Below, in pieces: positions 24,409 to 42,832 of a stretch of 42,863 bases of DNA (positions within the stretch are counted from its first letter, which is position 1; each line of letters opens with the position of its first letter). The stretch covers positions 1-42,863 of the forward strand of contig JAPKMT010000029.1 in assembly GCA_026645735.1 (NCBI GenBank), read 5' to 3'. The position numbers and the translations under genes are program-made. The notes under the pieces were generated by a model. That model was given only the letters and a program-made list of their open reading frames with translations. It did not search any database and had not been told where the DNA came from. This DNA is from Flexilinea sp. Lineage in GTDB: Bacteria; Chloroflexota; Anaerolineae; Anaerolineales; Anaerolineaceae.

Positions 24409-27400
24409 TTACTGATTTGAATCGTATACTGTTCTATGTTGCGCTTCAGGCAACCCTTTTTTCATATCAGGAGAATAGAAAACAAAACGGAAGTGACCAA
24501 ATTTCTTTGCCTGGTAAAGCGCGATATCAGCTGCACCATATAAATCGTCAAAGTTCGTGCCATCTTCATTAAACATGGATATTCCGACACAACAGGTGAA
24601 AAGGAACTGGCAGTCTTTGCAGAGCGACCCGCCTGCAGAAATATGACAGACACTTCGTCCATTTTCCTGAGTGTAATTTCGGAAGAACTCGCCTTTCATT
24701 AGATCAAAGAATGATACAATCTTCTGCCGAAGCTGGTTTTTTGACTTAATATTCTTGACAAAGACGACAAATTCATCACCGCCTATTCGTGCAACAATAT
24801 CATCACTGCGAAATGTCTTTAATAATACCTGTGCCAAACCCTGTAAGATCACATCGCCGTACGGGTGGCCGCAAACATCGTTTACTTTCTTGAACTCATC
24901 CATATCGATAATAATAAACGCATGATTGACACCATCCTCTGCGGATTGAATTTCCTTTGTAACCAGATATTCAAGTGATGATTTATTAAATAATCCGGTC
25001 AGGCTGTCCCGACGAGCTTCATTGGTCAGTTTTGAAATTCGCTTCTTCTCCTCATCGACATTGATGATTAAGCCAATACTCTGGATCGGAATACCATCAT
25101 CATCAAAAAGGATAGTTCCATTAATTCGATGCCATAGTAATTCACTCCCCGGCTCAAACGAATCTGCCAAACGAAATTCAATTTCTCGATTGGATCGGTT
25201 ATTTTGCAGATAAGAAACAATCCGATCATGATCTTCAGGGGAGAAATAATTGTTTTGCGTGATATTTTGACAGAAAGCCGGGATAGTGATGGATTCGGGA
25301 ATTTGTCCCTGCGGTGTGGTTTTTTTATAATTGAAAAGCATCAAGTCTCTCTTGTAATCATATTCATAAACAATCGCTTCCGTACAATCCACCAGAACCT
25401 GATAGCGATTTTTTTCCAGCTCCAGTTCCTCCTGTGCTTTTTTCCTTTCAGTAATGTCCATCAGCACTGCCAGTACAGCATCCATCCCATTTTTCGATCT
25501 TATACGTCTGCCGCGATTCCGAAGCCAAAGCAAACTGCCATCATTTTTCACACAGCGAATATCCAATTCATATTCATGTTGCTCAGGGGTATTAATAATT
25601 GTCTGCCAAAGTTTCTTACGGTCTTCCTCTAGAACGAGATTTACCAGTCCATCCTTGGATACTTCACGAAACTCCTCAATTGGAAAGCCGAATAAACTCA
25701 ATAACTGCGGATTAAAAAAGAAAAGCGGATAATTTGGCTTCAGATAGAATCCAATCACACATCCCGGGAACTGCTCACTTAACAAATTAAAACTGGTTCT
25801 TTCATTGATAACATTATCCACCTGTAAATCTTTCTTCAGATCACTGATATAAGAGATATGAAGCGTTTCAATGTAAGATTTTCCACTAATATTGGTGATT
25901 GACGCTGACATACAAAGTTTTGTCTTGTTCGAATCAGCAGTAATATTTAACTGGTCAACCGAAAGCACGGCAAAAATATCCTCACTGCCATCCGGTGTCG
26001 TTTTTTCGCTGAATCGTTCAATTTCATAAATATAGGGCATCACATTATTTTCAAGCTGCTTTGTAATTTGAGCTCCAAATTCTGCTTTGGTTAATACACC
26101 TTCTGAAGAAGTCGGATCATAAATATACACATCAGAAGCTAAAAAGAGCAATGCTTTTTCCGAATTTCGTTCAATATACATCGCATTTAAGAAAGATTCA
26201 AACATCTTTCTGACGGTTGTTTTTAGTATCTTGGCAGATGAAGCTGTTTCATTTTCCACTTGATACCCATAAACCCATTCATTTGTACTGGTTGAAGAAG
26301 CATCCAGTTTCTTCTCAAAATCAGCTTGCGATACAGGCCTTGAGTAGTAAAATCCTTGTGCATACAGACAACCGGCACTCATGAGGAAATCTGATTGTTC
26401 CTTTGTCTCAATCCCCTCACAGATCACCTGAATATTTAAGGTATGCGCCATTGCAACGATATGCGTCAGGATATCCTTCGTTCTTTTCGATATATAGGTC
26501 TCTGTAAGAAAGTTCCGATCTAATTTCAAAATATCAAACTGGACAGAATTCAACAGCGTCAGTGAGGAGTATCCGGAACCGAAATCATCAATGGAAGTCA
26601 GATATCCGATATCGCGCATCAGGGACATGACTTCTTGTGCATTTTCCGTCTCAGCCAGAGCTGTCTCGGTTAATTCCAGCTCAATCAGATATTTTGGAAT
26701 ATGATATGTTTCAAGAAAGAATTTCAACCGCTCAATATAATGTTCTTCCGCCAGATGCGCACGGGATTGATTGACAGAAATCGGCACGATCTTTTGCCCG
26801 TTCAAAGAGCGTCGGCGAATCATCTTGCAGGTTTCTTCCAGTACATAATCATCCAGCTGCAGAATAAAACCGTTCCGTTCAAACAACGGAATAAAGACAC
26901 CGGGAAGCATAAATCCTTTTTCTTTGCTGTTCCATCTGACAAGTGCTTCTGCACCAATGATTGAACCGGATTTCATATTAAATTTGGGCTGAAAAAAGAC
27001 TTGAAATTCATGATCCCGCAATGCCTGATTCTGAATATCTTCCAGTGTTTTCTCAAAATTTAATTTTTCCTGCATCGTCTCATCGTAAAAAGTGACGAGT
27101 GAGGATGATGTCTTGGATTCCATTCTCGCAATCTCTGCCCGATTGATCGCCGTAGTGATGGGCTGATCATGAGCCGGAATCAGATAAACTCCGAAATTCA
27201 TGTGCAGCGTAATCGAAGTATCGCCTTTGCGATAGGCGCTGCAATTATGATGCAGATACAAAAGGTCCCGATTCAATGAATCCATACTCAGGTATGGGAT
27301 CAGACTGACAAAATGATCCGCTTTCACCCTCACCGGGACAAGACCATAATCGGACTCTTTCTGCAGGACATGAGCCGTATGCCGGATAATATCATCTCCG

Positions 27401-29172
27401 ATGGATCTTCCATAGCAATCATTAATGACATCAAACCGATCGACATCCATGGACAACACAGCATAATTGCGGTATCTGTTGGATTGAATAACTCCGTGTC
27501 CTTCTTTTTCGAGCCAGCGAATATTTTTCAGTCGGGTTAATTCATCCTCATAAGCCATTTTGTAAAGGGTTTTTTCTGTTTTACGCCGCTCAATGTAAAT
27601 CCATGCTGAGATAATCATAATTATCAGAAATAAAATGACATACAAAAATGGATTTTTTGTAAAAAATTGTATAACCGTCATCGGATCTTTTTGACCGACT
27701 GTGATGTCTGTGATGATGTCTGAAAGTATTTCCGATCCGAGCGATTGAATTTCTTTATTCAGGATACTGATCAGCAGCGGATTCTTTTCACTGTTGATTC
27801 CAAAACTGATCGGAATTGAAAAACCACTGCTGATATTTGAGACCAAATCTTTGTTTTCTGCTTCTTTCAGTAATAATTCTGTTTCATAAACACTGGCATA
27901 AGTGATATCCCGGGTACCATCTCGAACCGCCCGAATACAATCACTCAAAACCGTACAGATGGTCACTTTGTCATTTGGTTTCTTCAATATATATTTCACC
28001 GCGTAATTCAAGCTTGGATGTACGATAATTCGTGGATTATCCCCTTGAAAATTCTTACGGGAAATACTTAAATATGGCAGCGTTAGATAAGGAACTGTTT
28101 TCTTGATGGATGAATTGGAAGGCAATCCGGAATCATAGCTGATATCAATCATGATATCCGTCTCACCACTTTGTACTTTTTTGATCCGATCGACATACGA
28201 TGAAACTTCCACATATTGAAGTTCCATTCCAATTCTTTTAGCAATATGGGAAAGGATCGCGTTTTCAAAACCGGTATATGTTTTCGTTACCGGATCATAC
28301 GCGGATAATGGATATCGTTTTGAAGCTGCTGCCACAAGAAATGGACCGTGAGAAACGAGATAATCATTTTCTTCCCGGGTAAGCGCTATAGAAAAAGTAT
28401 TCTTTGAAACATAGTACTTTCCATATAACCGGCTTATAAACAAAGGATCGTCCAATTCAATCGCGTCAATCGCCTGATCGACCTGCTTTATTAATTCAGT
28501 GTTTCCTTCTTTAACAATCGCATAATAGGGATTGTAGCCGAATCTGGCGATCATTTTATAAGAGGAAGGTACCAGCTGGTCCGAAATCACAATTCCGTCA
28601 ATTTCATTAGCTTCAACGGCTGCCTGCATTTCTACGATGCCGGGATATTCGATTAATGTGACAGAAAAATTATTTTCGCGTGCAAATTCTTCAAGCTGCT
28701 GATATCGGATACTTCCTTTTTGAATTCCAACTCTCATCCCATCGAAATTTTTAAAATCATTATAAAAGAATCGGTTATCTTCTTTCTTTATCGATAAAGC
28801 CCCATACCCGTAACCCATCATTTTTTGTGAGTAATCATAAAATCGGTCACGTTCAGGAGAATAATCGGCATAAGTCAGCAGGTCAATTTCACCTTTTTTC
28901 AATTTCTCCAAACATTCACCCCACGAACAATTAACGTAGATGTAATCGAATTTGGCATAATCACTGATACGCTGCAGGAATTCATAACCATATCCGCTGC
29001 GCGTGCCATCTGGCGAAATGTCCTGATAATACTCAGAAATAAAAAAACCAACTCGGACCTTAATAGATTGGTCTGAGGGATAGGCTTGAGAAGAAAGATT
29101 GTGAAAAAAGAGGGAGAATAGGATAACCGAGAATATCAGGAAGACAAAACGCAAGTACTTTCGAATTCCCAT
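24409..29172 (-). CDS. Membrane c-di-GMP enzyme: 2x SBP_bac_3, GGDEF, EAL, NTF2-like, 2x PAS, GGDEF
   Basis: A 1587-aa sensor enzyme. I start at 29172 (MGIRKYLRF), where GAGGAA precedes the ATG and a signal anchor follows; a longer frame opens at 29226. Order: two periplasmic solute-binding type 3 domains (about 36-260, 275-495), membrane helix (about 505-527), degenerate GGDEF with KADHF at 617, an EAL domain with EAL at 742-744 and intact-looking ELTE, IDDFG, LKLD and EGIE motifs, an NTF2/SnoaL-like domain (about 975-1120), two PAS domains (about 1124-1390) and a canonical GGDEF (RIGGDEF, 1464-1468) with an I-site RSDD. It could both make and hydrolyse c-di-GMP in response to an amino-acid-like ligand. 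A Cys-rich insertion (1509-1528) interrupts the last domain. Confidence 0.92.
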   Translation of the reverse strand: MGIRKYLRFVFLIFSVILFSLFFHNLSSQAYPSDQSIKVRVGFFISEYYQDISPDGTRSGYGYEFLQRISDYAKFDYIYVNCSWGECLEKLKKGEIDLLTYADYSPERDRFYDYSQKMMGYGYGALSIKKEDNRFFYNDFKNFDGMRVGIQKGSIRYQQLEEFARENNFSVTLIEYPGIVEMQAAVEANEIDGIVISDQLVPSSYKMIARFGYNPYYAIVKEGNTELIKQVDQAIDAIELDDPLFISRLYGKYYVSKNTFSIALTREENDYLVSHGPFLVAAASKRYPLSAYDPVTKTYTGFENAILSHIAKRIGMELQYVEVSSYVDRIKKVQSGETDIMIDISYDSGLPSNSSIKKTVPYLTLPYLSISRKNFQGDNPRIIVHPSLNYAVKYILKKPNDKVTICTVLSDCIRAVRDGTRDITYASVYETELLLKEAENKDLVSNISSGFSIPISFGINSEKNPLLISILNKEIQSLGSEILSDIITDITVGQKDPMTVIQFFTKNPFLYVILFLIIMIISAWIYIERRKTEKTLYKMAYEDELTRLKNIRWLEKEGHGVIQSNRYRNYAVLSMDVDRFDVINDCYGRSIGDDIIRHTAHVLQKESDYGLVPVRVKADHFVSLIPYLSMDSLNRDLLYLHHNCSAYRKGDTSITLHMNFGVYLIPAHDQPITTAINRAEIARMESKTSSSLVTFYDETMQEKLNFEKTLEDIQNQALRDHEFQVFFQPKFNMKSGSIIGAEALVRWNSKEKGFMLPGVFIPLFERNGFILQLDDYVLEETCKMIRRRSLNGQKIVPISVNQSRAHLAEEHYIERLKFFLETYHIPKYLIELELTETALAETENAQEVMSLMRDIGYLTSIDDFGSGYSSLTLLNSVQFDILKLDRNFLTETYISKRTKDILTHIVAMAHTLNIQVICEGIETKEQSDFLMSAGCLYAQGFYYSRPVSQADFEKKLDASSTSTNEWVYGYQVENETASSAKILKTTVRKMFESFLNAMYIERNSEKALLFLASDVYIYDPTSSEGVLTKAEFGAQITKQLENNVMPYIYEIERFSEKTTPDGSEDIFAVLSVDQLNITADSNKTKLCMSASITNISGKSYIETLHISYISDLKKDLQVDNVINERTSFNLLSEQFPGCVIGFYLKPNYPLFFFNPQLLSLFGFPIEEFREVSKDGLVNLVLEEDRKKLWQTIINTPEQHEYELDIRCVKNDGSLLWLRNRGRRIRSKNGMDAVLAVLMDITERKKAQEELELEKNRYQVLVDCTEAIVYEYDYKRDLMLFNYKKTTPQGQIPESITIPAFCQNITQNNYFSPEDHDRIVSYLQNNRSNREIEFRLADSFEPGSELLWHRINGTILFDDDGIPIQSIGLIINVDEEKKRISKLTNEARRDSLTGLFNKSSLEYLVTKEIQSAEDGVNHAFIIIDMDEFKKVNDVCGHPYGDVILQGLAQVLLKTFRSDDIVARIGGDEFVVFVKNIKSKNQLRQKIVSFFDLMKGEFFRNYTQENGRSVCHISAGGSLCKDCQFLFTCCVGISMFNEDGTNFDDLYGAADIALYQAKKFGHFRFVFYSPDMKKGLPEAQHRTVYDSNQ

Positions 29173-29440
29173 CGTTTTCCTCGTGTTAAACACTTTCATT
29201 GGTTTTAGAATCCATTTTGCAGCCAATCATAATCTCTGCTCCAAAAGTCTTAGAATTCTGGAACAACTTTTCGATCCGTGCACTTGAAAATTGAAGGTTT
29301 CATTACAATTTTATAACCTTTGTTTAGGTTGATGCATGCTTAGATCAATGGACACTTCAAAAGAAAAAAGATTGGTTCAAATAACAAAGTGTTGCTTCGA
29401 TGCTCAAAAATAATCTTGAGAATAATTTAAAATGATCTTA

Positions 29441-29615: not shown

Positions 29616-30059
29616 TTAATTTGCTGTTTTTTCCAGATGTTCAAGCAGAATATCCATTGCCTCACTGTATCCGGGAATTCCGTGGCCTACAATAGCCGCG
29701 ATACAAGCCAATTCCGTTATGGAATGATGACGAAATGGTTCACGTTTCATATTATCAGTGATATGTACTTCAACCGCTGGAATTGATACTGATTTTAAGG
29801 CGTCTAAAATTGCGATACTGGTAAAAGTGTAACCGCCGGGATTAATAATAATGCCATCCATCTTTTGGTAGGCAGCCTGAATCGTATCGATAATGGAACC
29901 TTCATGATTTGACTGGAATAATTGCACATCAATACTTCTTTTCCTGGCTTCTTCCCGAATATAATCTTCCAGTTGCGTAAAGGTCGTATTTCCATACATA
30001 TGGGGTTCTCGGATTCCAAGCATATTTAGATTTGGACCATTTATCACTAATATTTTCAT
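29616..30059 (-). CDS. aroQ: Type II 3-dehydroquinate dehydratase
   Basis: A 147-aa dodecameric-type dehydratase that converts 3-dehydroquinate to 3-dehydroshikimate, the third shikimate step. Motifs: NGPNLNMLGIREPHMYG with the catalytic Tyr in the MYG segment, FQSNHEGSIID, INPGGYTFTSIAI, and VEVHITDNMKREPFRHHS with the catalytic His. Length is normal. Its ATG overlaps the aroE-aroK stop by four bases (ATGA). Last gene of the aro operon. Confidence 0.95.
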   Translation of the reverse strand: MKILVINGPNLNMLGIREPHMYGNTTFTQLEDYIREEARKRSIDVQLFQSNHEGSIIDTIQAAYQKMDGIIINPGGYTFTSIAILDALKSVSIPAVEVHITDNMKREPFRHHSITELACIAAIVGHGIPGYSEAMDILLEHLEKTAN

Positions 30060-31303: not shown

Positions 31304-31473
31304 TTGCCTTACTCCAATTCCTGCGTAACAGCAGAATTCAAAAGAATCTTTAAAAAAATCTCATTGTTCTTTGACCTGAGTTTCTCACTTTTTGAAACAA
31401 AGTCCCTTTTTACACTCAAATTTGGAGATTTCAAGGCACTAAATCGCGATACTCAGGAGTACACACATAGCAA

Positions 31474-31632
31474 TTCGTCATTGCGAGGAGGGCATAAGCC
31501 CGATGAAGCAATCTCTTTTCGTGTGGCAATCTTTACACAATGGGACAGGGAGATTGCCACTCCCCTACGGAATAATATCAAGGACAGGATTCTCACCACT
31601 GTGTGGATTCGGATGGCAATCTGTAATTACGA
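31474..31632. repeat. Dispersed-repeat-like element in the aro operon gap
   Basis: The 424-base gap 31304-31727 holds a block beginning TTCGTCATTGCGAGGAGGGC, with GAAGCAATCTC and, inverted, GGAGATTGCCACTCC, and ending TGGCAATCTGTAATTACGAA. This composition (ATTGCGAG...GCAATCT, repeated in both orientations) is that of widespread intergenic repeats known in several phyla including Chloroflexota. The edges form an imperfect inverted repeat (TTCGTCATTGC, TTCGTAATTAC). It looks old and degraded. No gene is supported here. Confidence 0.6.
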
Positions 31633-31727
31633 AGATCATTCTACTTTCACACAACCCGTTTTTCTTTCGAATTGACAATCCGTAATGAGATATGATCTAC
31701 AAAACCCTGATATGAAACCACTATCCG

Positions 31728-32867
31728 CTAAATTTCTGAATAACTCCCCAAAAATTCGAACTGGTCCGGTCCTGTCTCCAAATCACTTAACAATTGGATC
31801 ACATCTTCCGAATAGATGGATGCATCAAAATCAAAATAAAACATAAATTCAAAATCTTTTCCGGGAATAGGACGGCTTTCCAATTTTGTCAGATTCAATC
31901 CCAGTGCAGCAAATTTTGCAATGGTTGTATACAATGAACCAGGACGATGAGGTAATGTCAGCATCAGGCTGATCTTATCTGCTCCAGGATAAATTTCCAG
32001 CTCCTTGGAAATACAAATAAACCTTGTGTAATTGATTTCGCTGTTTTGAATGGAATCATTCAATACAGTCAAACCGTACAGATCAGCGCAATTCTTTGAA
32101 GAAATTGCTGCAATATCAGAACGATCAGAATTTGCCACCATCTGTGCAGCTATTGCTGTATTCTCACAGACAGTTATTTTGATTTCCTTGTGTTCACGCA
32201 AAAATTCACTGCACTGACCGATTGCCTGTTCATGAGAAACAATCTCCGTAATTCTGTCCAATCTGGTTTCCGGTTTCGCCAACAATGTATGGGAGATCAG
32301 CATTTTCAAGCTTTTGGCGATATGAAAATCATATTTTTTCATCAGATCATACACCTTCGTCACAGATCCGTAAGAACTATTCTCGATCGGAAGGATCCCG
32401 TATCGGCACAATCCGTTTTGTACAGCTTGAAAAACTCCTTCAAAATGACGAAAATACAGGATATTTGGTAATGAAAAAATTCGATCACAAGCCATTTGGG
32501 AATACGCGCCCTCAATTCCCTGGCATGCTACGACAGCTTTTGACGGAAATTGTTTCGCAGTATTGATCAACGCTGCTGCAATTTCATCTGCCAGTTTTCC
32601 TTTATGAATGAGAATCCGGTTTTGATAACTCTTGCTTAAATCAAAAAGCGTTGAGAAAATAACTTTTGCATACCCTGCATATTCGTCACCAGCCAATTCG
32701 GCAGTTTGGACTAATATTTCACGTTCCCGCTTCCTGTCCAGCAGAGGAAGATGATGCGCCTGTTTATATTCAGCAACTTTTAAAGCCATCTCCATCCGCT
32801 GGATTACCAGATTCACAATCTGCTTGTCAATTTCATCAATTTGAGAACGAATCTCCTGAATTTCCAT
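31728..32867 (-). CDS. pheA: Bifunctional chorismate mutase-prephenate dehydratase
   Basis: A 379-aa P-protein leading to phenylpyruvate. Residues 1 to about 90 are an AroQ-class chorismate mutase (IRSQIDEIDKQIVNLVIQRM, YKQAHHLPLLDRKREREIL). Residues about 105-290 are the dehydratase (GIEGAYSQMA, LPIENSSYGSV, ENTAIAAQMVA, NYTRFICIS). The C-terminal ACT domain (LMLTLPHRPGSLYTTIAKFA, ESRPIPGKDFEFMFYFDF) should give feedback inhibition by Phe. It follows aroC after 15 bases. Confidence 0.96.
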   Translation of the reverse strand: MEIQEIRSQIDEIDKQIVNLVIQRMEMALKVAEYKQAHHLPLLDRKREREILVQTAELAGDEYAGYAKVIFSTLFDLSKSYQNRILIHKGKLADEIAAALINTAKQFPSKAVVACQGIEGAYSQMACDRIFSLPNILYFRHFEGVFQAVQNGLCRYGILPIENSSYGSVTKVYDLMKKYDFHIAKSLKMLISHTLLAKPETRLDRITEIVSHEQAIGQCSEFLREHKEIKITVCENTAIAAQMVANSDRSDIAAISSKNCADLYGLTVLNDSIQNSEINYTRFICISKELEIYPGADKISLMLTLPHRPGSLYTTIAKFAALGLNLTKLESRPIPGKDFEFMFYFDFDASIYSEDVIQLLSDLETGPDQFEFLGSYSEI

Positions 32868-32882: not shown

Positions 32883-33959
32883 TTATAACAAATAATCTAA
32901 TAAAACAATGGCTATTGCCGCTTCAACAACCGGAACTGCACGCAAAACGACACAAGGATCATGTCGGCCTTGAATTTTCAGTTTCGTATTCTCTTTTCGT
33001 GAGAGACTGACAGAATCCTGTTCTTTCCCAATGGAAGGTGTGGGTTTGAAAGCAGCTCTCAGGATAATCGGCATTCCTGTACTGATTCCACCCAGAATTC
33101 CGCCATGATGGTTGGTTCGGGTTCGAATTTCTCCCTTTTCCGAAAAATAAAACGCATCATTATGCTCACTTCCACGCATCTTCGCCGATGAAAATCCGGC
33201 TCCGAACTCTAAACCTTTCAATGCAGGAATTCCAAAAAGAATCTGAGCGAGACGATTTTCCAATCCATCGAACATCGGATCTCCATATCCGGCGGGGAAA
33301 CCAATTGCACAAGCCTCGATAACACCTCCCACAGAATCCTGATCCGCTTTCGCCTCCTGAACTTTCACCTGCATATTTTCTCCTGCATTTTCATCCAATA
33401 CCGGGAAACTCCTGGCTAGCAAAGAATCCATCACAAAAGCATCCACACAAATGGGATCGAAAAGTAAATCCTGAACGTCAGCGATCGAAGCAATATGAGC
33501 CGCAATCTTTATACCCCGTTTTGCGAGGATCTGAAGGCACACAGCGCCTGCCAGACACAGTGGAGCTGTCATACGTCCAGAATACGGTCCACCTCCTCGA
33601 ATATCGTTAAAGCCGCCTGATTTCAGATAGGCAGGATAATCCGCATGCATCGGACGGGGAACATCCTGAATTTCCGCATAATCCTTCGAACGCGGATCGT
33701 GATTCTCAATCATCATGCATAAAGGAGCTCCGCATGTTCTCTCATTGTTAAGTCCCGAAAGAATCACAGGCAAATCAGGTTCGTTACGCGTTGTCGTCAG
33801 GGCATTTTTTCCAGGAGCTCTGCGCGCCATAAAATTCTCGACAGCCGAAAAATTAATCATTTCACCCGCAGGAATTCCCTCCATCACCACACCAATTGCT
33901 TTCGAATGTGACTGTCCGAAAATAGTAATATGCAGATGGTCGCCGATATTAAAGGACAT
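32883..33959 (-). CDS. aroC: Chorismate synthase
   Basis: A 358-aa FMN-dependent enzyme that makes chorismate from EPSP, the last shikimate step. I start at 33959 (MSFNIGDHLHIT) because GGAGG precedes it and the family begins here; the frame extends to 34067 without support. Signatures: FGQSHSKAIGVVMEGIPAGE, RRAPGKNALTTTRNEPD, GRMTAPLCLAGAV, MRGSEHNDAFY, NHHGGILGGISTGMPI and GRHDPCVVLRAVPVVEA. It overlaps the end of aroA by 11 bases. Confidence 0.96.
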   Translation of the reverse strand: MSFNIGDHLHITIFGQSHSKAIGVVMEGIPAGEMINFSAVENFMARRAPGKNALTTTRNEPDLPVILSGLNNERTCGAPLCMMIENHDPRSKDYAEIQDVPRPMHADYPAYLKSGGFNDIRGGGPYSGRMTAPLCLAGAVCLQILAKRGIKIAAHIASIADVQDLLFDPICVDAFVMDSLLARSFPVLDENAGENMQVKVQEAKADQDSVGGVIEACAIGFPAGYGDPMFDGLENRLAQILFGIPALKGLEFGAGFSSAKMRGSEHNDAFYFSEKGEIRTRTNHHGGILGGISTGMPIILRAAFKPTPSIGKEQDSVSLSRKENTKLKIQGRHDPCVVLRAVPVVEAAIAIVLLDYLL

Positions 33960-35217
33960 AATATTTTCCTCCCAGACTTTGAAAATCCCTAAAGAAATTT
34001 GGGTAACTTTTTCGGACAGAATCTGATCCAAGTATCGTAACTTGCATTTTACATAAAATACTGGCAATCGCAGCAGACATTACGATCCTGTGGTCACGAA
34101 ACCCATCCACTTCTCCCCCGGAAAGGCTGCCGCACCCTGTAATCGCCAATCCATCTGTTGTGATTCGGACATTCCCTCCCAGTCGGTTAATGCATTCGGA
34201 AATGGCAGTCAGCCGGTCGCTTTCTTTCAATTTCAGTCTTAATGCATTCCGAATAACCGTTTCCCCTCTGGCTGCACAAGAGGCTATTGCCAGAATCGGT
34301 ACGATATCCGGATACTCTGAAGCATCAATCTCAATCCCGGTTAACGCTCCGGGAAACACGTCAATTTTCTCCTGGTCTGACTGAATCCTGGCACCAAAAA
34401 GCTGAAGCAAAGACAAAATTGTGCGGTCAGGCTGAACACTTGTAAGGGACAATCCGGTAAGAGAAACTGGGTTGCCAATCGCTCCTGAAGTCAGGAAGAA
34501 AGAAGCATTGGACCAATCCCCTTCTGTCCTCACAAAACCGGGAGATTGGTAGCGTTGCCCGCCACGAATCCGATAAACCCCATCGCTGGTTTCAATCCGG
34601 ATGCCAAAATTTGAAAGTGATTTTATCGTCATGTCAATATAAGCCGCAGATTGAAGAGACGAGAGGATTCGAATTTCACTGTCCCCATCCAATAAAGGCA
34701 AAGCAAATAACAATCCGGAAAAGAATTGGGAACTGATATCGCCACGTAGTTCAAATGAACCGCTTTTTAATCCACCCCGCAATATGACAGGCAGTTTTGG
34801 AGATGAAAAGGTACATCCATTGGCTTCCATCTGCTCCCGCAACGGAGAGATCGGTCGTTCCGGCAGCCTGCCTGTTCCGGTCAGCGTTGTATTTTTACAA
34901 ACAACCGCTGCTACCGGCAGCAGAAACCGCAGCGTCGATCCACTTTCTGAACAATTCAAAACAGCCGAATCCGGTATATGGTCCCAAACAGGAAAAACTT
35001 GCCAGGTACCTTGATCTTCAGCAGATTCATTGATCACAGCTCCCATGTTTCGCAGACAATCCATCGTGGCCAGGATATCCTCATTCAGTCCCCCAATAAA
35101 AATGGTGGTAGGCTCATGGCTCAATGCTGCACAGATTAACAAACGGTGAGCATCTGACTTGGATGGTATTGCGCTTAATGTCCCAGACAGAGGTGAAGGA
35201 ATGATTTGGATATTCAT
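33949..35217 (-). CDS. aroA: 3-phosphoshikimate 1-carboxyvinyltransferase (EPSP synthase)
   Basis: A 422-aa two-domain enzyme that joins phosphoenolpyruvate to shikimate 3-phosphate. Visible blocks are the N-terminal PSKSDAHRLLICAAL (binding Lys), LNCSESGSTLRFLLPVAA, LPERPISPL, ISSQFFSGLLFALPLL, ALRLKESDRLTAI and DHRIVMSAAIA. Length is normal. The 5' end lies 6 bases after aroB and the 3' end overlaps aroC. Confidence 0.96.
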   Translation of the reverse strand: MNIQIIPSPLSGTLSAIPSKSDAHRLLICAALSHEPTTIFIGGLNEDILATMDCLRNMGAVINESAEDQGTWQVFPVWDHIPDSAVLNCSESGSTLRFLLPVAAVVCKNTTLTGTGRLPERPISPLREQMEANGCTFSSPKLPVILRGGLKSGSFELRGDISSQFFSGLLFALPLLDGDSEIRILSSLQSAAYIDMTIKSLSNFGIRIETSDGVYRIRGGQRYQSPGFVRTEGDWSNASFFLTSGAIGNPVSLTGLSLTSVQPDRTILSLLQLFGARIQSDQEKIDVFPGALTGIEIDASEYPDIVPILAIASCAARGETVIRNALRLKLKESDRLTAISECINRLGGNVRITTDGLAITGCGSLSGGEVDGFRDHRIVMSAAIASILCKMQVTILGSDSVRKSYPNFFRDFQSLGGKYYVL

Positions 35218-35223
35218 TCTGAA

Positions 35224-36288
35224 TTATTCCTTCCTGATTCCGTTATTCACAATTTCTTCCAGATCATCCAGATCAACAGAATGCAAAAAACAGTGCCCGA
35301 TTCTTTCCGGAAAAACCAGCTGGATCCAATCACCTGACCTTTTCTTATCCTGCATGGCTGCTCTGACAATCACATCAGCAGTATAGGAACAATCGGTTGG
35401 CAGCTGATACATTTCAAGGAGGGCTTTTAATGGTTCGACGACTGGTTCCTGACAGAATCCCATTTTTTGTGCTGCCCTCGCTGCTATCATCATACCGATT
35501 GCTATAGATTGCCCATGAGAAAACGAATAATTACTGCATTTTTCAATGGCGTGCCCAAATGTATGACCAAAATTTAATAACTGGCGAATCCCTGTATCCC
35601 GAGTGTCTCTGGCAACAAAATCCGCTTTAATCGTGATGTTTTGCAGGATGATATCCTCCCAATTATTCTCCGGATGAGCCTTCTGTAAGCGGATGAACAA
35701 CGTTTGATCAGCGATCATTGCATGTTTGATCATCTCAGCGATCCCCTCCGAAAAGACATCCGGAGGAAGTGTCGAAAAAGTCAGCGGATCGCACAGAACC
35801 ATTGAGGGCTGCCAAAATGCTCCTGCCAAATTTTTACCCGCTGATAAATTCACTGCTGTCTTGCCGCCTATTGAAGAATCCACTGCAGCCAATATCGTTG
35901 TCGGAACCTGAAGAAATCGGATGCCGCGCAAGTATACAGCAGCCGCAAAACCAGCCATATCCCCGCAAATACCGCCTCCAAGCGCCAGGATCAAATCACT
36001 GCGAGTCATTTGTTGTTCAGCTAAAAAGTTCAAAATTTGATGAACTGTCTGAAGATTTTTACTTTCTTCGCCGGGTTTAAAAATGAATTTCGCCGTGGTT
36101 ATTGTCGCTTTTTGCAGTGATTCCATGACAATATCCGCATAAATCCGGTCAACATTTAAATCAGTTATGACCGCAACTTTTTTTGCAAACATCGAAGCAT
36201 GAATCAGATTCCCGATGCGACCCAGCAATCCAGAATCAATAATCACATCATAATTTCCGCCGGATGAGTTGACCTGAAATTTTTTCAT
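35224..36288 (-). CDS. aroB: 3-dehydroquinate synthase
   Basis: A 354-aa NAD- and metal-dependent cyclase for the second shikimate step. Family blocks are GEESKNLQTVHQIL, ALGGGICGDMAGFAAAVYLRG, QVPTTILAAVDSSIGGKTAVN, the metal-site region ISEG-like FSEGIAEMIKHAMI, and LLNFGHTFGHAIEKCS plus SHGQSIAIGM. Its ATG overlaps the tyrA stop (ATGA). Confidence 0.96.
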   Translation of the reverse strand: MKKFQVNSSGGNYDVIIDSGLLGRIGNLIHASMFAKKVAVITDLNVDRIYADIVMESLQKATITTAKFIFKPGEESKNLQTVHQILNFLAEQQMTRSDLILALGGGICGDMAGFAAAVYLRGIRFLQVPTTILAAVDSSIGGKTAVNLSAGKNLAGAFWQPSMVLCDPLTFSTLPPDVFSEGIAEMIKHAMIADQTLFIRLQKAHPENNWEDIILQNITIKADFVARDTRDTGIRQLLNFGHTFGHAIEKCSNYSFSHGQSIAIGMMIAARAAQKMGFCQEPVVEPLKALLEMYQLPTDCSYTADVIVRAAMQDKKRSGDWIQLVFPERIGHCFLHSVDLDDLEEIVNNGIRKE

Positions 36289-37139
36289 TTTTCTTCAACC
36301 ATTTCTCCGTCAATGACTGCTTTTCTTTCCCGTCCTTCTTTCAATAATTCATACAGTTTTTCGCGATTACCGGTACGGATTGCATCTGCGTATTCCTCTA
36401 GATGTTGAATCAACAATTCAATTTCATTGGAAAGATGCTTCGGATTATCAAGAAACAACTCAGTCCACATTTTTTCATTCAATTTCGCCACGCGAGTCAT
36501 ATCTTTAAAACTTCCGGCAGAAAATCCGATGTGATCCAACGCCGTCGGACTCTTGATATAAGCACTGGAAACCACATGGGCCAACTGTGAAGTAAAAGCG
36601 ATCATTCGATCATGCTCTTCAGGAGTCGAAATCTGGATGTAACTGAAACCGATTTCTCTGCATAGTTCTTTTACGGATTGCACTGTTTCAATTCGCGTTC
36701 CATGAAAAGGAACTAAAATCATGGATGCATTTTCAAATAAAGATCCCATCGAATGTGAAAAACCGGAGAATTCCCTTCCCGCCATAGGATGTGCACCGAT
36801 ATAAATGAAATGATTCTTATGAGCTATCTCCAAGAGAGCCGGACAAACTGCCTCTTTGACTCCGCACAGATCCAACACCAGGCCATCCCGCTTAAAATAT
36901 GCTGCATTCTTTCTGGCAAATTCGATCGTATCACCTGGATACATAGCAAGGAAAACAATGTCACAATCCTTCATGGTTTCAATCGTCAGTTCTTCATCAA
37001 TCGCTTCCAGCAGACGTGCTTTGCATACAACCGATTCGATAATATCCATGCCCAGAACGGTATGTTCCGTATGTGTCTTGATCGCTTTCGCCATGGATCC
37101 GCCTATCAGACCAAGTCCTATCACCCCAATTTTCATCAT
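36285..37139 (-). CDS. tyrA: Prephenate dehydrogenase
   Basis: A 284-aa NAD(P)-dependent dehydrogenase making 4-hydroxyphenylpyruvate for tyrosine. It has the nucleotide loop GVIGLGLIGGSMAKAI, DLCGVKEAV, GAHPMAGREFSGF with the active-site His, and FTSQLAHVVSSAYI. There is no fused chorismate mutase or ACT domain, so feedback control probably acts elsewhere. Arogenate use cannot be excluded. It lies 37 bases after the DAHP synthase gene. Confidence 0.93.
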   Translation of the reverse strand: MMKIGVIGLGLIGGSMAKAIKTHTEHTVLGMDIIESVVCKARLLEAIDEELTIETMKDCDIVFLAMYPGDTIEFARKNAAYFKRDGLVLDLCGVKEAVCPALLEIAHKNHFIYIGAHPMAGREFSGFSHSMGSLFENASMILVPFHGTRIETVQSVKELCREIGFSYIQISTPEEHDRMIAFTSQLAHVVSSAYIKSPTALDHIGFSAGSFKDMTRVAKLNEKMWTELFLDNPKHLSNEIELLIQHLEEYADAIRTGNREKLYELLKEGRERKAVIDGEMVEEK

Positions 37140-37176: not shown

Positions 37177-38187
37177 TTACCAGTGAAACGCAAATGGTAC
37201 AATCTGGCGGACACACTCTGATACATCGAGAAATGCTTCCGGGGTCAACGATTGTTTGCCATCAGAAAGCGCATGCGGAGGATCATTATGGACCTCAATC
37301 ATCAATCCATCTACACCACAAGCCACGGCTGCCATTGCCATCGGCTTCACCAGTTTTGATAAACCAGTTGCATGGCTTGGATCAACGATCACTGGCAAGT
37401 GGCTCATTTGTTTTAAGAGCGGTACTGCTGATAAATCCAACGTATTCCGTGTGGCAGTTTCAAAAGTCCGAATCCCGCGTTCACAAAGCATGACTTTTTC
37501 ATTTCCACTTGCCATGATATATTCGGCGCTCATAAGGAATTCCTCCAGAGTATTTGCCAATCCGCGTTTAAGCAAAATCGGTTTTCCGGAACGTCCCATT
37601 TCTTTCAGAAGCTCAAAATTTTGCATATTACGGGCACCGATTTGAATAATATCAATCTCATCAAAAAGTGGAAGCTGCGTGATATTCATAATCTCGGTCA
37701 CAATCGGGAGGCCTGTTTCCTTTTTTGCTTCCAGCAGCAGATCAATGCCTTGTCCGCCCAAACCTTGAAATGCATAAGGAGATGTTCTGGGTTTGAAGGC
37801 TCCCCCGCGCAGAATGGTAGCCCCGGATTCCTTGACGCTTTTTGCAATAAAACAAATCTGATCGCGTGTTTCGACTGAACAGGGACCAGCGAAAATCTGC
37901 ATGGAACCATCGCCAATTTTCAAGCCGTTTTCAAGTTCGATGATGGTATTGTCCGGATGAAACTTGCGATTTGCATTTTTATACGGTTCCTGAATGCGTT
38001 TCACATCTTCCACAATATCCAATGCCCGAATCAAGTCAATATCAACGGATGAGGTATCGCCAATCAAGCCCAATATCATATGGGCTGCGCCTACGCTAAT
38101 GTGAACGTCCAGATTCATGCTTTTCAGCCATTGAATCAAGTTTTCCAATTGCCTTTTTTCTGGATTATTCTTTAGAATAACTATCAT
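37177..38187 (-). CDS. aroF: DAHP synthase, type I-beta with N-terminal regulatory domain
   Basis: A 336-aa first enzyme of the pathway, condensing PEP and erythrose 4-phosphate. The N-terminal about 70 residues (VILKNNPEKRQLENLIQWLK) form a ferredoxin-like domain as in the Thermotoga enzyme, where it mediates Phe/Tyr inhibition. The barrel shows IFAGPCSVET, GATILRGGAFKPRTSPYAFQ, QIGARNMQNFELLKE, PILLKRGL, LCERGIRTF, VIVDPSHATG and MIEVHNDP. GGAGG precedes the ATG. First structural gene behind the Phe/Tyr attenuator. Confidence 0.95.
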   Translation of the reverse strand: MIVILKNNPEKRQLENLIQWLKSMNLDVHISVGAAHMILGLIGDTSSVDIDLIRALDIVEDVKRIQEPYKNANRKFHPDNTIIELENGLKIGDGSMQIFAGPCSVETRDQICFIAKSVKESGATILRGGAFKPRTSPYAFQGLGGQGIDLLLEAKKETGLPIVTEIMNITQLPLFDEIDIIQIGARNMQNFELLKEMGRSGKPILLKRGLANTLEEFLMSAEYIMASGNEKVMLCERGIRTFETATRNTLDLSAVPLLKQMSHLPVIVDPSHATGLSKLVKPMAMAAVACGVDGLMIEVHNDPPHALSDGKQSLTPEAFLDVSECVRQIVPFAFHW

Positions 38188-38209: not shown

Positions 38210-38250
38210 AAAAAAAAGGAGCTCCGCTGTGAATTTCACTGTGGAGCTCC
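38210..38250 (-). terminator. Attenuator terminator of the aro operon
   Basis: Read on the minus strand, GGAGCTCC (38250-38243) pairs with GGAGCTCC (38225-38218). Inside, GTG pairs with CAC after a small internal loop. A run of eight Us follows (38217-38210). It starts 22 bases after the leader-peptide stop and ends about 20 bases before the aroF start. Confidence 0.88.
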
Positions 38251-38305
38251 TTTAAGTTTCTTATAATTCTTTTTATTGCTCAGGATACCGACATACAGTA
38301 AAATT
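38232..38305 (-). promoter_or_regulatory. Predicted antiterminator helix
   Basis: On the minus-strand RNA, AAUUUUACUGU (38305-38295, leader codons 27-30) can pair with ACAGUGAAAUU (38242-38232). This makes 11 continuous pairs with one G-U. The second strand is the inner part of the terminator hairpin, so the two folds compete. Confidence 0.7.
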
Positions 38306-38383
38306 CAAATAAGCTTTGCGAGCATAATAATACGCAAAGCCAAAAAAGAAAAAATAAAAACTAAAGAATTTTACAGTATCCAT
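38273..38383 (-). CDS. Phe/Tyr-rich leader peptide of the aro operon
   Basis: A 36-codon frame with AAGGA 6 bases before the ATG. The peptide begins MDTVK, then FFSFYFFFFGFAYYY (residues 6-20), and ends YPEQ. It contains 9 Phe and 6 Tyr codons, 15 of 36. Seven Phe and one Tyr fall in residues 6-14. Between its stop and aroF stands a rho-independent terminator. This is the architecture of amino-acid attenuators such as enterobacterial pheA and trp leaders. Shortage of charged tRNA-Phe or tRNA-Tyr should stall the ribosome and allow read-through. Confidence 0.88.
   Translation of the reverse strand: MDTVKFFSFYFFFFGFAYYYARKAYLNFTVCRYPEQ
38313..38340 (-). promoter_or_regulatory. Pause hairpin within the leader
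   Basis: GCTTTGCG (38340-38333) pairs perfectly with CGCAAAGC (38320-38313). The 12-base loop contains the three consecutive Tyr codons. It corresponds to the 1:2 hairpin of classical attenuators, and a ribosome stalled at the Phe/Tyr codons would melt it. Confidence 0.75.
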
Positions 38384-38400
38384 TTTGTATCCTTGCAAGG

Positions 38401-38429
38401 ATCATAGCATGTCCGTTAAGTTTTGTAAA
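38401..38429 (-). promoter_or_regulatory. aro operon promoter
   Basis: TTTACA (38429-38424), a 17-base spacer and TATGAT (38406-38401). Transcription would begin near 38394, so the leader's ribosome site lies at the very 5' end of the RNA. Confidence 0.7.
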
Positions 38430-40313: not shown

Positions 40314-42311
40314 TTACTTTGTTTCTTCAGATTCGGAATCAGTTTTTTCCTGGTCAGTTTCTTCGACTGGCTGTGGTTCCAAGACAACGGCCGTTGTACT
40401 TTCTGCTTCCCCATCATAAACAAAACAACGATTTTTACCAAATCGTTTAGCATGGTATAAAGCTGAATCAGCCTTCTGATACAATTCGTGGAATGTATCG
40501 CCGTGCAGAGGAGCGAACGCAATCCCGATCGAACACGATACCTCAACAACATCCTGATGCCCCTGGAGGTACTGATTGGCGGCGATGCACAAATCTTCCG
40601 ATTTTTCCATCACAAACTGCGGTGAATTCATCTTTGGCAAAAAGATCAGAAATTCATCACCTCCCAGTCTGCAGATTGTGTCTGTTTTACGAAACTTTTT
40701 CGACAGCAAATCTGAAAACTTGACCAGCAGTTGATCACCAACCAAATGGCCCAGCGTGTCATTGACCAGTTTAAAGTTATCCATATCAATGAGCAGTACA
40801 GCATGCACTTCATTTTCCATTAATATCTGGCTGGCAGGATCCATCAAAACTTGATCAATTCGCTGAATGGCAGCCTTTCGATTATATAATCCGGTCAGGG
40901 AATCATGTTCAGCGCGAATCAACAAATCTTTTTCAACGTGTTTTTGCTGAGAAATATCTTCAATTGTACCCACCGCATGTATCGGATTCTTTTCTTCATC
41001 CAAAATGCTTGTCAATTTTATTTTGTACCATTGTGTCGTTTCATTCGCTTGTGTTGCACAGATAATACAGGATTCTGTTTCGATGCCCATGTCAATATTG
41101 CGAAAAATCTCTTTGATCAATTCACTCTCTTTTTGTGGAAGATCATCAATTTTCAGTAATTTTTGCGGAAAAACAGGATCTTGAACATCCAGGATCGTCT
41201 TAAAACCGCTCTGATCGGAAAGTGAAATCCTTTTCGTTAAAATATCATAATCAAAAATCGTATTTGCAGTCATTGAGGCAGCAATACGAAATCGCTGTTC
41301 ACTGAAAATCAGTTCGCGATTCGTAGAAGAAATGCGCTTTTGAAAAATGTGTTTGCAAACTACTGTCGATAAGAAGAATAAAAACAGAAATCCGATGATT
41401 TTGGTTGTCAGCGCCATCACCATTTGATTGACTGATGAGGAGGTGTTTACCAAATCCGTCTTCCTGATCGTTGTTACGGCATACCATTGGTTGAACCCGA
41501 TGGGTTCATAATACAACAGATGTTGTTCCCCATCAATCAATATTTTTTCGAACCCGCTATTGCCATCGCGCATTTCCTGCTGAATTTTCGTACTGGATCC
41601 TTGATCTTCAAATTGAGCATTTTCGATATTATTCCAAAAATTTCCTGAAGCAAATAAAACATTGGTTGTCACAGGGGATAAAAGAAAACTTCCCTTCTGG
41701 TCAATCAGCGTTGTTACTTCATTTTCATTTTGCTGATCGATTGATGATATAACCGCAAATTTTTCCGGATTATAAAATCCATATAGAACACCTTGGGTTT
41801 GTTGGTTCCAATCCAAAATCGGGCTGGCAAAACTGATCATCGGTTGATTATAAAGAACAGAATACGGAGTTACATCGGAAATATTTCTCTTTCCTTGCAT
41901 GGCTTGCTGAAAGGAATCGTAGGCAGAAATATCCAAAACTGCTGTATCGGAGGAGTAAAGCCAGCCTTTAGAATCAGCATAGAATACTGCATCAAAGGAT
42001 CCCTCACGAAGCACCAGATTCAATACCTCTTTATTTTCTGCTTTCCCACTTTCAGAAAGTTCAGAATACCAAACTGCGCTATGCGAAAGTAATTCCAACG
42101 GTTGTTCTAGTTTTGATTTGAGCAAAGCCGCATTTTTTGCAGAGACTTCTTTAATATACTGTTCTGTTTCTGTTTTCTTGATTTTATTGTAATTATCTGA
42201 AAAATCTTTCAATAACAGGAATACAAATAGTATCCCAAGAATAAAAAACATGGAAATAATTATGGCCTGGTAATCTTTTGGTTGCCTGTGTTTTCTCTCG
42301 AACACACTCAT
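40314..42311 (-). CDS. Membrane diguanylate cyclase (dCache-like sensor, PAS, GGDEF)
   Basis: A 665-aa c-di-GMP synthase. I start at the ATG at 42311; a TTG one codon earlier is less likely. Helix 1 (about 18-38) and helix 2 (about 292-312) enclose a periplasmic Cache-like sensor with FDAVFYADSKGWLYSSD and SFASPILDWNQ. A PAS domain follows (EQRFRIAASM to GTIEDISQQK), then GGDEF at about 550-554 (RLGGDEFLIF) with an intact inhibitory site RKTD. The short C-terminal tail is acidic and Glu-rich. There is no EAL domain. GGGGA lies upstream of the start. Confidence 0.92.
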   Translation of the reverse strand: MSVFERKHRQPKDYQAIIISMFFILGILFVFLLLKDFSDNYNKIKKTETEQYIKEVSAKNAALLKSKLEQPLELLSHSAVWYSELSESGKAENKEVLNLVLREGSFDAVFYADSKGWLYSSDTAVLDISAYDSFQQAMQGKRNISDVTPYSVLYNQPMISFASPILDWNQQTQGVLYGFYNPEKFAVISSIDQQNENEVTTLIDQKGSFLLSPVTTNVLFASGNFWNNIENAQFEDQGSSTKIQQEMRDGNSGFEKILIDGEQHLLYYEPIGFNQWYAVTTIRKTDLVNTSSSVNQMVMALTTKIIGFLFLFFLSTVVCKHIFQKRISSTNRELIFSEQRFRIAASMTANTIFDYDILTKRISLSDQSGFKTILDVQDPVFPQKLLKIDDLPQKESELIKEIFRNIDMGIETESCIICATQANETTQWYKIKLTSILDEEKNPIHAVGTIEDISQQKHVEKDLLIRAEHDSLTGLYNRKAAIQRIDQVLMDPASQILMENEVHAVLLIDMDNFKLVNDTLGHLVGDQLLVKFSDLLSKKFRKTDTICRLGGDEFLIFLPKMNSPQFVMEKSEDLCIAANQYLQGHQDVVEVSCSIGIAFAPLHGDTFHELYQKADSALYHAKRFGKNRCFVYDGEAESTTAVVLEPQPVEETDQEKTDSESEETK

Positions 42312-42832
42312 CAAATAAAATCCCCATTAAATTTCTGAACAAAACAATTAGATCAGCAGCGCTTGTCTGTTCTTTATATTCCAATGGCAGTATTTTTTAT
42401 TTCGAAAGAAATTTATTTAGAATATATTTTCCTGTTTATAAAAAAAGTAATTCAGGTTAAGTTTATGATCATGCGAAATACCGCTAATGAAATAATGCTC
42501 ATGCATAGAATTCTGTAGTCAATTGCAAGAGGTCCGCATAATCATTGTTAAGGAATGTATTCTCTTTCTTCTTTTTTTCTGCCGATGTGGACAATTCACC
42601 ACACAAATTTTCTGATTTTAATGAATATGAATTCATCTGTGGAAGATCACTCATTGCGATATGCGGCGCAAAATCTATGAAATTTCACTTACTTGCCACA
42701 CCATCGAACTTGATGACCATCAAAACGGGAAATATTTTTTTTGATTATATTTCATATCCTTCATTTTTGTAAATATATTTTTTTATATGTAAGAGCAACA
42801 TGATAATGTCCTATAGTAGCAAAATAGAAATG
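42312..42832. other. Gene-free stretch near the right edge
   Basis: About 520 AT-rich bases after the cyclase start hold no frame with a convincing ribosome site or recognisable protein. The 75-codon frame at 42545-42772 looks like chance. ATGTCCTA occurs twice near the end (from 42806 and from 42830). Confidence 0.5.

Follow-up and report, generated by a model that had tools for sequence, protein, structure and literature searches.

A putative leader-peptide attenuator with Phe and Tyr codons before the shikimate operon of a Flexilinea genome and its relatives in other phyla

The leader and operon in the window

The window, by which we mean the whole stretch of DNA analysed here (42,863 nt), is contig C21 of a 3.35-Mb draft genome of Flexilinea sp. 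(G000; 92% completeness). Its minus strand carries eight genes in the order aroF-tyrA-aroB-aroA-aroC-pheA-aroEK-aroQ, which together provide all steps from DAHP through chorismate to the last precursors of Phe and Tyr (Table 1). The products of tyrA, pheA and the aroE-aroK fusion have the right domains despite scores below the equivalog cut-offs, and the true start of aroC is probably near 33932 because its family match begins only at residue 46-47. Long single matches to the aroE-aroK fusion occur in genus relatives as well. The only long gap of the operon, 424 bp between pheA and aroEK (31304-31727), holds no clear gene. Close to the operon are a 1605-aa ORF that by eye is sensor-like with cyclic-di-GMP domains (24409-29226) and a 666-aa diguanylate cyclase of the GGDEF type (40314-42314).

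Table 1 Features of the leader and operon (window coordinates)
Feature	Position	Strand	Details and basis
Promoter-like site (candidate)	38401..38429	-	TTTACA 38429-38424, 17-nt spacer, TATGAT 38406-38401, extended -10 (TG); consensus match
Ribosome-binding site AAGGA of leader ORF	38390..38394	-	Sequence
Leader ORF, 36 codons, MDTVKFFSFYFFFFGFAYYYARKAYLNFTVCRYPEQ, 9 Phe and 6 Tyr	38273..38383	-	Sequence; genus comparison; shuffles
Segment 1 (ATACTGTAAAATTC), off-state partner of segment 2 (protector helix)	38366..38379	-	Fold; permutation test, 41 loci
Pause-type hairpin, 9 bp	38312..38341	-	Arms GGCTTTGCG 38341-38333 and CGCAAAGCT 38320-38312; fold, covariation
Segment 2, antiterminator 5' strand (TGAATTTTACTGT; leader codons L-N-F-T-V)	38295..38307	-	Covariation with segment 3
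Segment 3, antiterminator 3' strand (ACAGTGAAATTCA), within upper stem and loop of terminator	38230..38242	-	Covariation
Intrinsic terminator	38210..38250	-	Arms GGAGCTCC 38250-38243 and 38225-38218, 17 nt between, T8 38217-38210; fold, 14-bp register covariation
aroF, DAHP synthase, 336 aa, first structural gene	37177..38187	-	ncbifam NF006421 477.9 bits, cut-off 335
tyrA, prephenate dehydrogenase	36285..37139	-	Best 174.5 bits, below equivalog cut-off
aroB, 3-dehydroquinate synthase	35224..36288	-	TIGR01357 371.4 bits, over cut-off
aroA, EPSP synthase	33949..35217	-	TIGR01356 344.8 bits, over cut-off
aroC, chorismate synthase	32883..33932	-	ORF-list start 34067
pheA, chorismate mutase-prephenate dehydratase	31728..32867	-	206.8 bits, below equivalog cut-off
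aroE-aroK fusion, shikimate dehydrogenase and shikimate kinase, 415 aa	30056..31303	-	Residues 3-252 aroE-like, 256-414 aroK-like; below equivalog cut-offs
aroQ, type II 3-dehydroquinate dehydratase	29616..30059	-	Over cut-off

A sequence-only reading of this DNA had described a promoter, a ribosome site, a 36-codon leader with 9 Phe and 6 Tyr codons, a hairpin, an antiterminator and a terminator before aroF, and we found all of these between 38429 and 38210 on the minus strand. The candidate promoter has 10 of 12 matches and was the best of six such sites on both strands of 801 bp (shuffles, 2.7 +/- 1.5 sites). The loop of the pause-type hairpin, TATTATTATGCT, reads TAT TAT TAT GCT and includes three Tyr codons (Tyr18-20). 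The antiterminator had been given as 11 bp, a figure that needed correction: it comprises 13 pairs, one of them G-U, between 38307-38295 and 38242-38230, and it occupies the upper stem and loop of the terminator, not the GGAGCTCC arm. We also identified a fourth helix, previously unnamed, in which the start of the ORF (38379-38366) pairs with 38307-38295, the same segment that serves as the antiterminator 5' strand. Segments 1 and 2 and the pause hairpin all lie inside the leader ORF.

The 241-nt leader RNA folded at -62.4 kcal/mol (z -4.2), and none of 200 dinucleotide shuffles folded as well. The terminator stem forms 12 of its 14 pairs; a simple terminator scan, which takes loops of 3-8 only, returned 0 sites in the leader stretch, where the stem has two mismatches. 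The locus thus combines the features of an attenuator of the trp/phe type: a codon-rich ORF with a ribosome site, a position before matching biosynthetic genes, an intrinsic terminator and an antiterminator pairing.

Conservation and covariation of the leader

Fourteen genomes of the genus, including that of the window, were examined for aroF of the window's subclass, which was full-length in ten, a fragment in one and absent from three. A Phe/Tyr leader precedes nine of the ten full-length loci, which form two groups: clade A (the window, G010, G003 and G001), with aroF 79-96% identical to the window's, and clade B (G013, G005, G012, G007 and G006), with aroF 64-66% identical. Under a strict rule (SD within 16 nt, ATG start, 10-60 codons and at least six F/Y in 12 residues), all nine leaders passed compared to 0 of 450 of their shuffles. 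The tenth locus, in G004 (aroF 71% identical to the window's), has no leader upstream of aroF, and this looks like a loss because its aroF pairs with that of leader-bearing G001 in both of the trees described below; G004 is therefore a candidate for natural loss of the attenuator. This locus lies near position 745909 of G004:C1 (L087 and L143, the same place), and its pheA match covers only 86 aa. In G009, the stretch G009:C83:40223-40498 (L113, L149) holds only an aroF fragment with two stops, with relatives of aroEK and aroQ still nearby.

The leaders of the genus differ considerably in sequence. Rewriting of the terminator within clade A has affected its arms but spared the inner AGTGAAATTCA with its partner GAATTTTACT/GAATTTTGCT; in G001, both sides of the pause hairpin are rewritten. 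The helices of clade B consist mostly of different letters and follow the same plan. The leader ORF extends past segment 2 in clade A but stops directly after the pause hairpin in clade B. Clade B operons (L144-L148) have the order aroF-aroB-aroA-aroC-aroEK-aroQ, and their leaders keep both Phe and Tyr codons; no match to tyrA or pheA was found in the fetched stretches, which makes the sensing of two amino acids less obviously apt there.

Beyond the genus, we analysed the best 80 of 591 relatives found by pattern, a sample from which near relatives of the window may be absent. By record title these comprise 66 Bacillota, 6 Spirochaetota, 4 Lentisphaerota, 3 Planctomycetota and 1 unplaced sequence. 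Strict leaders precede aroF in 51 of the 80, mainly Clostridia; 16 of 4000 shuffles of the upstream regions and none of the 80 reverse strands gave one. A relaxed rule, which accepts ATG, GTG or TTG starts and does not require an SD, identified leaders in 66 of the 80 and, together with the nine in the genus, a total of 75. The 66 were distributed over Bacillota (58/66), Spirochaetota (2/6; L061, L064), Lentisphaerota (3/4; L046, L063, L074), Planctomycetota (2/3; L008, L021) and the unplaced L032. The strict rule, applied to the 80 best relatives, leaves just L063 and L032 outside Bacillota and Chloroflexota. Fourteen of the 80 had no leader even by the relaxed rule; L080 offered just 151 nt upstream. 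The aroF found in the rest of the window's family and order is of another subclass, 49-55% identical in the fetched loci, and a strict leader was found in 0 of 20 of these loci. The idea of a leader peculiar to Chloroflexota is not borne out: the same layout is frequent upstream of aroF in Clostridia and is also seen in further phyla.

Both F and Y occur in each of the 75 relaxed leaders, and W in 7 of them. Codons for F and Y made up 32.6% of the reading frame compared to 9.4% and 15.4% of the other two frames, an excess that is partly built in, since in-frame F/Y served to select the leaders. A hairpin-plus-T site at -8 kcal/mol or better was found for 69 of the 75, and in 68 of these it ends past the stop codon. 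No fixed order or number of F and Y is kept from leader to leader, and peptide length and the remaining residues vary widely. At L048 and L051, leader and terminator lie 484 and 430 nt upstream of aroF, and an intervening small gene may be the first one regulated.

We evaluated the helices in a MAFFT alignment (A2) of 41 rows picked by eye for a common terminator core from the 67 loci having both leader and terminator (of the 75 leaders). For the antiterminator (12 pairs), 83.3% of 454 cells were paired, both sides had changed at 10 of 12 pairs (reached by 1 of 500 shuffles) and the covariation score was 0.353 versus 0.196 in shuffles (reached by 0/500), with slid registers only 29-45% paired. 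The terminator (14 pairs) was 90.7% paired, with both sides changed at 13 of 14 pairs (5/500 shuffles) and a score of 0.587 versus 0.275 (0/500). For the pause hairpin (9 pairs), 86.2% of cells were paired and the score was 0.377 versus 0.207 (0/500), although its 6 of 9 double-change pairs were matched by 79 of 500 shuffles and the register slid by +1 was still 62.5% paired. To remove the by-eye choice of rows, the count was repeated on all 67, giving 77.8% paired versus 66.7% in shuffles for the antiterminator, 83.2% versus 69.8% for the terminator and 75.9% versus 67.1% for the pause hairpin; for each of the three helices, 0 of 300 shuffles matched the paired cells or the double-change cells.

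Because the pairing of segments 1 and 2 is not alignable across clades, this protector helix was tested by permuting partners among the 41 loci. Own pairs averaged -12.1 kcal/mol compared to -9.0 +/- 0.4 kcal/mol for permuted ones, with 0 of 2000 permutations as low, and 0 of 5000 after thinning to 29 loci. The same test applied to segments 2 and 3 gave -16.6 versus -11.6 kcal/mol (0/2000). Relatedness inflates the significance of such shuffles and permutations, but the thinning and the separate rewritings argue against relatedness as the sole cause. The energies of single antiterminator duplexes were unexceptional compared with shuffles (p <= 0.05 in 24 of 68 loci, median z -1.5), so the case for this helix rests on covariation. 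The conserved frame and covarying helices that the sequence-only reading had proposed to test for in relatives were found in the genus and the named loci, in the 41- and 67-row counts and in the permutation of the protector helix. In sum, comparison among loci showed an ORF with its frame and codon bias, four helices, their position and their covariation.

These observations bear on one alternative, a constitutive terminator that happens to follow an unrelated gene for a hydrophobic micro-protein. T-rich DNA easily yields F/Y-rich ORFs and the terminator is strong, as this alternative would have it. It is nonetheless most improbable: leader ORFs are far more frequent in real than in shuffled upstream regions of the best relatives, the antiterminator and protector helices co-change, and the peptides differ widely in length and in residues other than F and Y.

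We also built a covariance model (R1) from 29 rows, covering the pause hairpin and terminator, and ran it over the window and 90 loci. It scored the window at 95 bits and recovered aroF leaders on which it had not been trained, both near copies of training rows (L044, 96 bits; L018, 83; L047, 78) and more distant ones (L060, 65.5 bits; L069, 61.9; L009, 52.7); L008 (69 bits) and L046 (61 bits) are themselves training rows. Scores were low at L021 (31.5 bits), L061 (25.0) and L064 (23.9), and the search found nothing at the leaders of L063 and L074, so at these five loci the case consists of the leader ORF and the terminator. Applied to 24 whole genomes of named loci, R1 gave a match at E <= 0.01 in 11 and was silent in 13, some of which have relaxed leaders (the five loci just named). 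Among 301 genomes drawn from the window's order, 8 had matches, the convincing ones being four genus members among the matches listed. Matches in G109, G124, G183 and G208 (37-41 bits, outside the genus) were attributed to chance, as their neighbouring genes by eye are not aromatic, and so were a match in L017 (29.9 bits) far from aroF and those on the opposite strand, mostly on the palindromic terminator.

Predicted mechanism and its alternatives

The window leader is very probably a transcription attenuator of the ribosome-mediated kind. It would respond to the charging of tRNA-Phe and tRNA-Tyr and thereby determine read-through into the eight genes of the shikimate/Phe/Tyr operon. From the arrangement of its parts we infer the pausing, the stalling, the coupling, the direction of control and the exclusion of terminator and antiterminator through their shared segment 3. 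RNA polymerase would make the leader and pause at the hairpin (38341-38312) while a ribosome starts the leader ORF. With ample Phe and Tyr, the ribosome would reach the stop codon and leave, segments 1 and 2 would pair, segment 3 would stay free and the terminator would form, ending transcripts near 38210. When charged tRNA-Phe or tRNA-Tyr is short, the ribosome would instead stall in the Phe and Tyr codons, mask segment 1 and hold the pause hairpin open; segment 2 would then pair with segment 3 and the polymerase would read on into aroF. The 2:3 pairing should preclude the terminator because segment 3 cannot simultaneously serve as its upper stem and loop. The default state would be off, since the 1:2 helix and the terminator are expected to form without any translation. 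In clade B, where the stop codon adjoins the pause hairpin, segment 2 would be covered by the very ribosome that has reached the stop, so that in both clades complete translation would lead to termination.

The sequence-only reading had also singled out the sensing of two amino acids by one leader. Such dual sensing is likely, given the presence of F and Y in every relaxed leader, though other leaders, such as those of ilv and thr, also respond to more than one amino acid. Control by Tyr may be weaker than control by Phe: the Tyr triplet is a good way downstream of segment 1, and a ribosome stalled at Tyr18-20 of the window may therefore leave that segment uncovered.

Could the RNA itself be the sensor, as in a T-box or small-molecule riboswitch that binds uncharged tRNA or an amino acid, with the F/Y-rich ORF incidental? 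Aromatic genes in Bacillota are often under T-box control, and the window genome does use T-boxes, with six matches at E <= 0.001 of which two exceed the gathering score. However, no Rfam family, including the T-box (RF00230), reached its gathering score in the window or in the 39 aroF locus ids scanned (20 loci plus 20 ids, 16 without a relaxed leader; L003 is in both sets, and L087 and L143 are the same place). The leader ORF has moreover been kept despite large sequence change, and it encloses segments 1 and 2 and the pause hairpin of the window. We regard an RNA sensor as very unlikely. When Rfam results for the window were listed by E value, all of the 14 rows except Phe_leader were taken as chance, including the top row, mir-761, which falls on the terminator palindrome on the other strand.

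An arrest peptide, in which a specific nascent chain stalls the ribosome on binding free Phe or Tyr (TnaC-like) and codon starvation plays no part, has in its favor a G-K-A-like motif after the F/Y run, present as a loose pattern in 36 of the 75 relaxed leaders. The motif is encoded just where the 3' arm of the pause hairpin lies, which means that RNA pairing would explain it, and the free variation in the order and number of F and Y speaks against a specific chain. This explanation is scarcely more credible to us than an RNA sensor, and attenuation by codon starvation remains the preferred account.

Origin, known relatives and significance

A careful, hand-thinned tree of 58 aroF proteins placed clade A with a Planctomycetia MAG (L008; support 99/90) and clade B with Oscillibacter and kin (100/98), and a topology holding the ten genus rows together was rejected (p-AU 0.0044; the bootstrap had not settled). 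A quick tree of 98 rows gave the same placement (87 and 98), with a single genus clade not rejected (p-AU 0.257). The latter tree requires 15 state changes of the relaxed leader label, implying that losses, missed leaders or several gains are many. Clade B and Oscillibacter have in common the GGCTG/CAGCC form of segments 2 and 3. The better of the two trees points to two separate gains of the operon, leader included, by the genus; this is a leaning and not proof. The leader most likely came with the operon, because the aroF found in the rest of the family and order is of the other subclass, leaderless in the loci fetched, and because of the trees. From trees and distribution together, we infer that the leader family moves with the aroF operon between phyla.

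A Clostridia-like operon in a draft genome raises the question of contamination. We searched 16S genes for the sites of the probes GNSB-941, CFX1223 and CFX109. The first two match the full-length 16S of G010, G004 and G013 without mismatch; CFX109 had three mismatches in each of the five 16S looked at. GNSB-941 and CFX1223 are described in PMC3935151 as phylum probes for Chloroflexota. The 16S of the window genome is a fragment that ends before the probe sites, which explains why the probe search of it found nothing; it is 95.8% identical to the G010 16S over 1028 columns. Contamination was rejected for the genus because G010:C1 (522 kb) and G013:C27 (77 kb) each carry aroF on the same contig as a 16S that matches both Chloroflexi probes. 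Anatomy, covariation and the 16S of genus-mates support the earlier proposal of a ribosome-mediated Phe/Tyr attenuator before a whole chorismate-to-Phe/Tyr operon in a Chloroflexota genome.

Among known systems, the enterobacterial pheA attenuator has a leader peptide rich in Phe codons, alternative hairpins and a terminator; it responds to Phe only and controls one gene, whereas the window leader has Phe and Tyr codons and precedes an operon for the complete pathway. The Rfam model of this class, RF01859 (Phe_leader), aligns over its full length with 38377-38211, scoring 25.3 bits (E 0.051), below its gathering score of 55. The nearest published thing we found, compared by description only, is the uORFC-13-1 motif, a uORF before Acholeplasma aroF with 24 examples from Acholeplasma and environmental sequences only, as given in the accessible portion of PMC8632094. 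Like the window leader, it is a short uORF with Phe codon(s) before aroF, with a possible promoter and RBS and an adjoining intrinsic terminator, and attenuation through the speed of Phe incorporation was proposed. It differs in requiring at least one Phe codon and in having one further helix, and that portion of the paper does not mention Tyr or describe an operon-wide role or spread across phyla.

Leader-peptide systems had, according to a 2010 statement in the accessible sections of PMC2965389, been shown only in Proteobacteria and Actinobacteria; the same source adds a His leader before hisS paralogs in bacilli. That leader and the Leu-rich ilv-leu attenuator of Staphylococcus aureus (PMC5794164, in the text available) resemble the window leader by description, as leader-peptide attenuation outside those two phyla, and differ in amino acid and operon. 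In the open literature, with most subscription papers outside the scope of the search, we found no description of a Phe/Tyr leader family before aroF, and PMC4833913, as far as its available text goes, does not bear on it. The family is apparently an undescribed one of a known kind, pheA/trp-like attenuation. Its novelty is moderate in kind and larger in its spread across phyla.

The T-box shares with the window leader an RNA-based sensing of aminoacylation before amino-acid genes, and it needs no translation. In the window genome, T-box matches lie before trpB (G000:C44:93583-93839, over the gathering score) and a trpB-like gene (G000:C77:89696-89955; 91.7 bits, just under 93). The remaining T-box matches precede genes that, as far as reading the sequence tells, encode Ile- (over the gathering score), Thr-, Val- and Ser-tRNA synthetases. 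Within Chloroflexota, trp genes preceded by T-boxes had already been reported from Dehalococcoides (PMC2494555). The genome would combine T-boxes for trpB and a trpB-like gene with a leader peptide for the Phe/Tyr/chorismate operon, so that branches of the same pathway would be sensed in two different ways.

Phe/Tyr leaders before aroF are now seen to form a whole family in Clostridia, Chloroflexota and other bacteria, apparently passed on together with the operon even from phylum to phylum. We consider it an even bet that these leaders constitute a portable, self-contained module, that is, a single ancestral family of Phe/Tyr attenuators that was carried with the shikimate operon across at least five phyla (Bacillota, Chloroflexota and Lentisphaerota and, by the relaxed rule only, Planctomycetota and Spirochaetota), entered one Chloroflexota genus twice and works in each new host, for which it would need only a ribosome closely following RNA polymerase. 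PMC7858274 discusses expression without such coupling, in Bacillus subtilis and perhaps in bacteria at large. Phe/Tyr leaders allow transcription-translation coupling to be tested directly in organisms other than the usual models, and if the portable-module reading is true, the leader would mark lineages, many Clostridia included, in which transcription and translation are coupled at least here, unlike in Bacillus subtilis.
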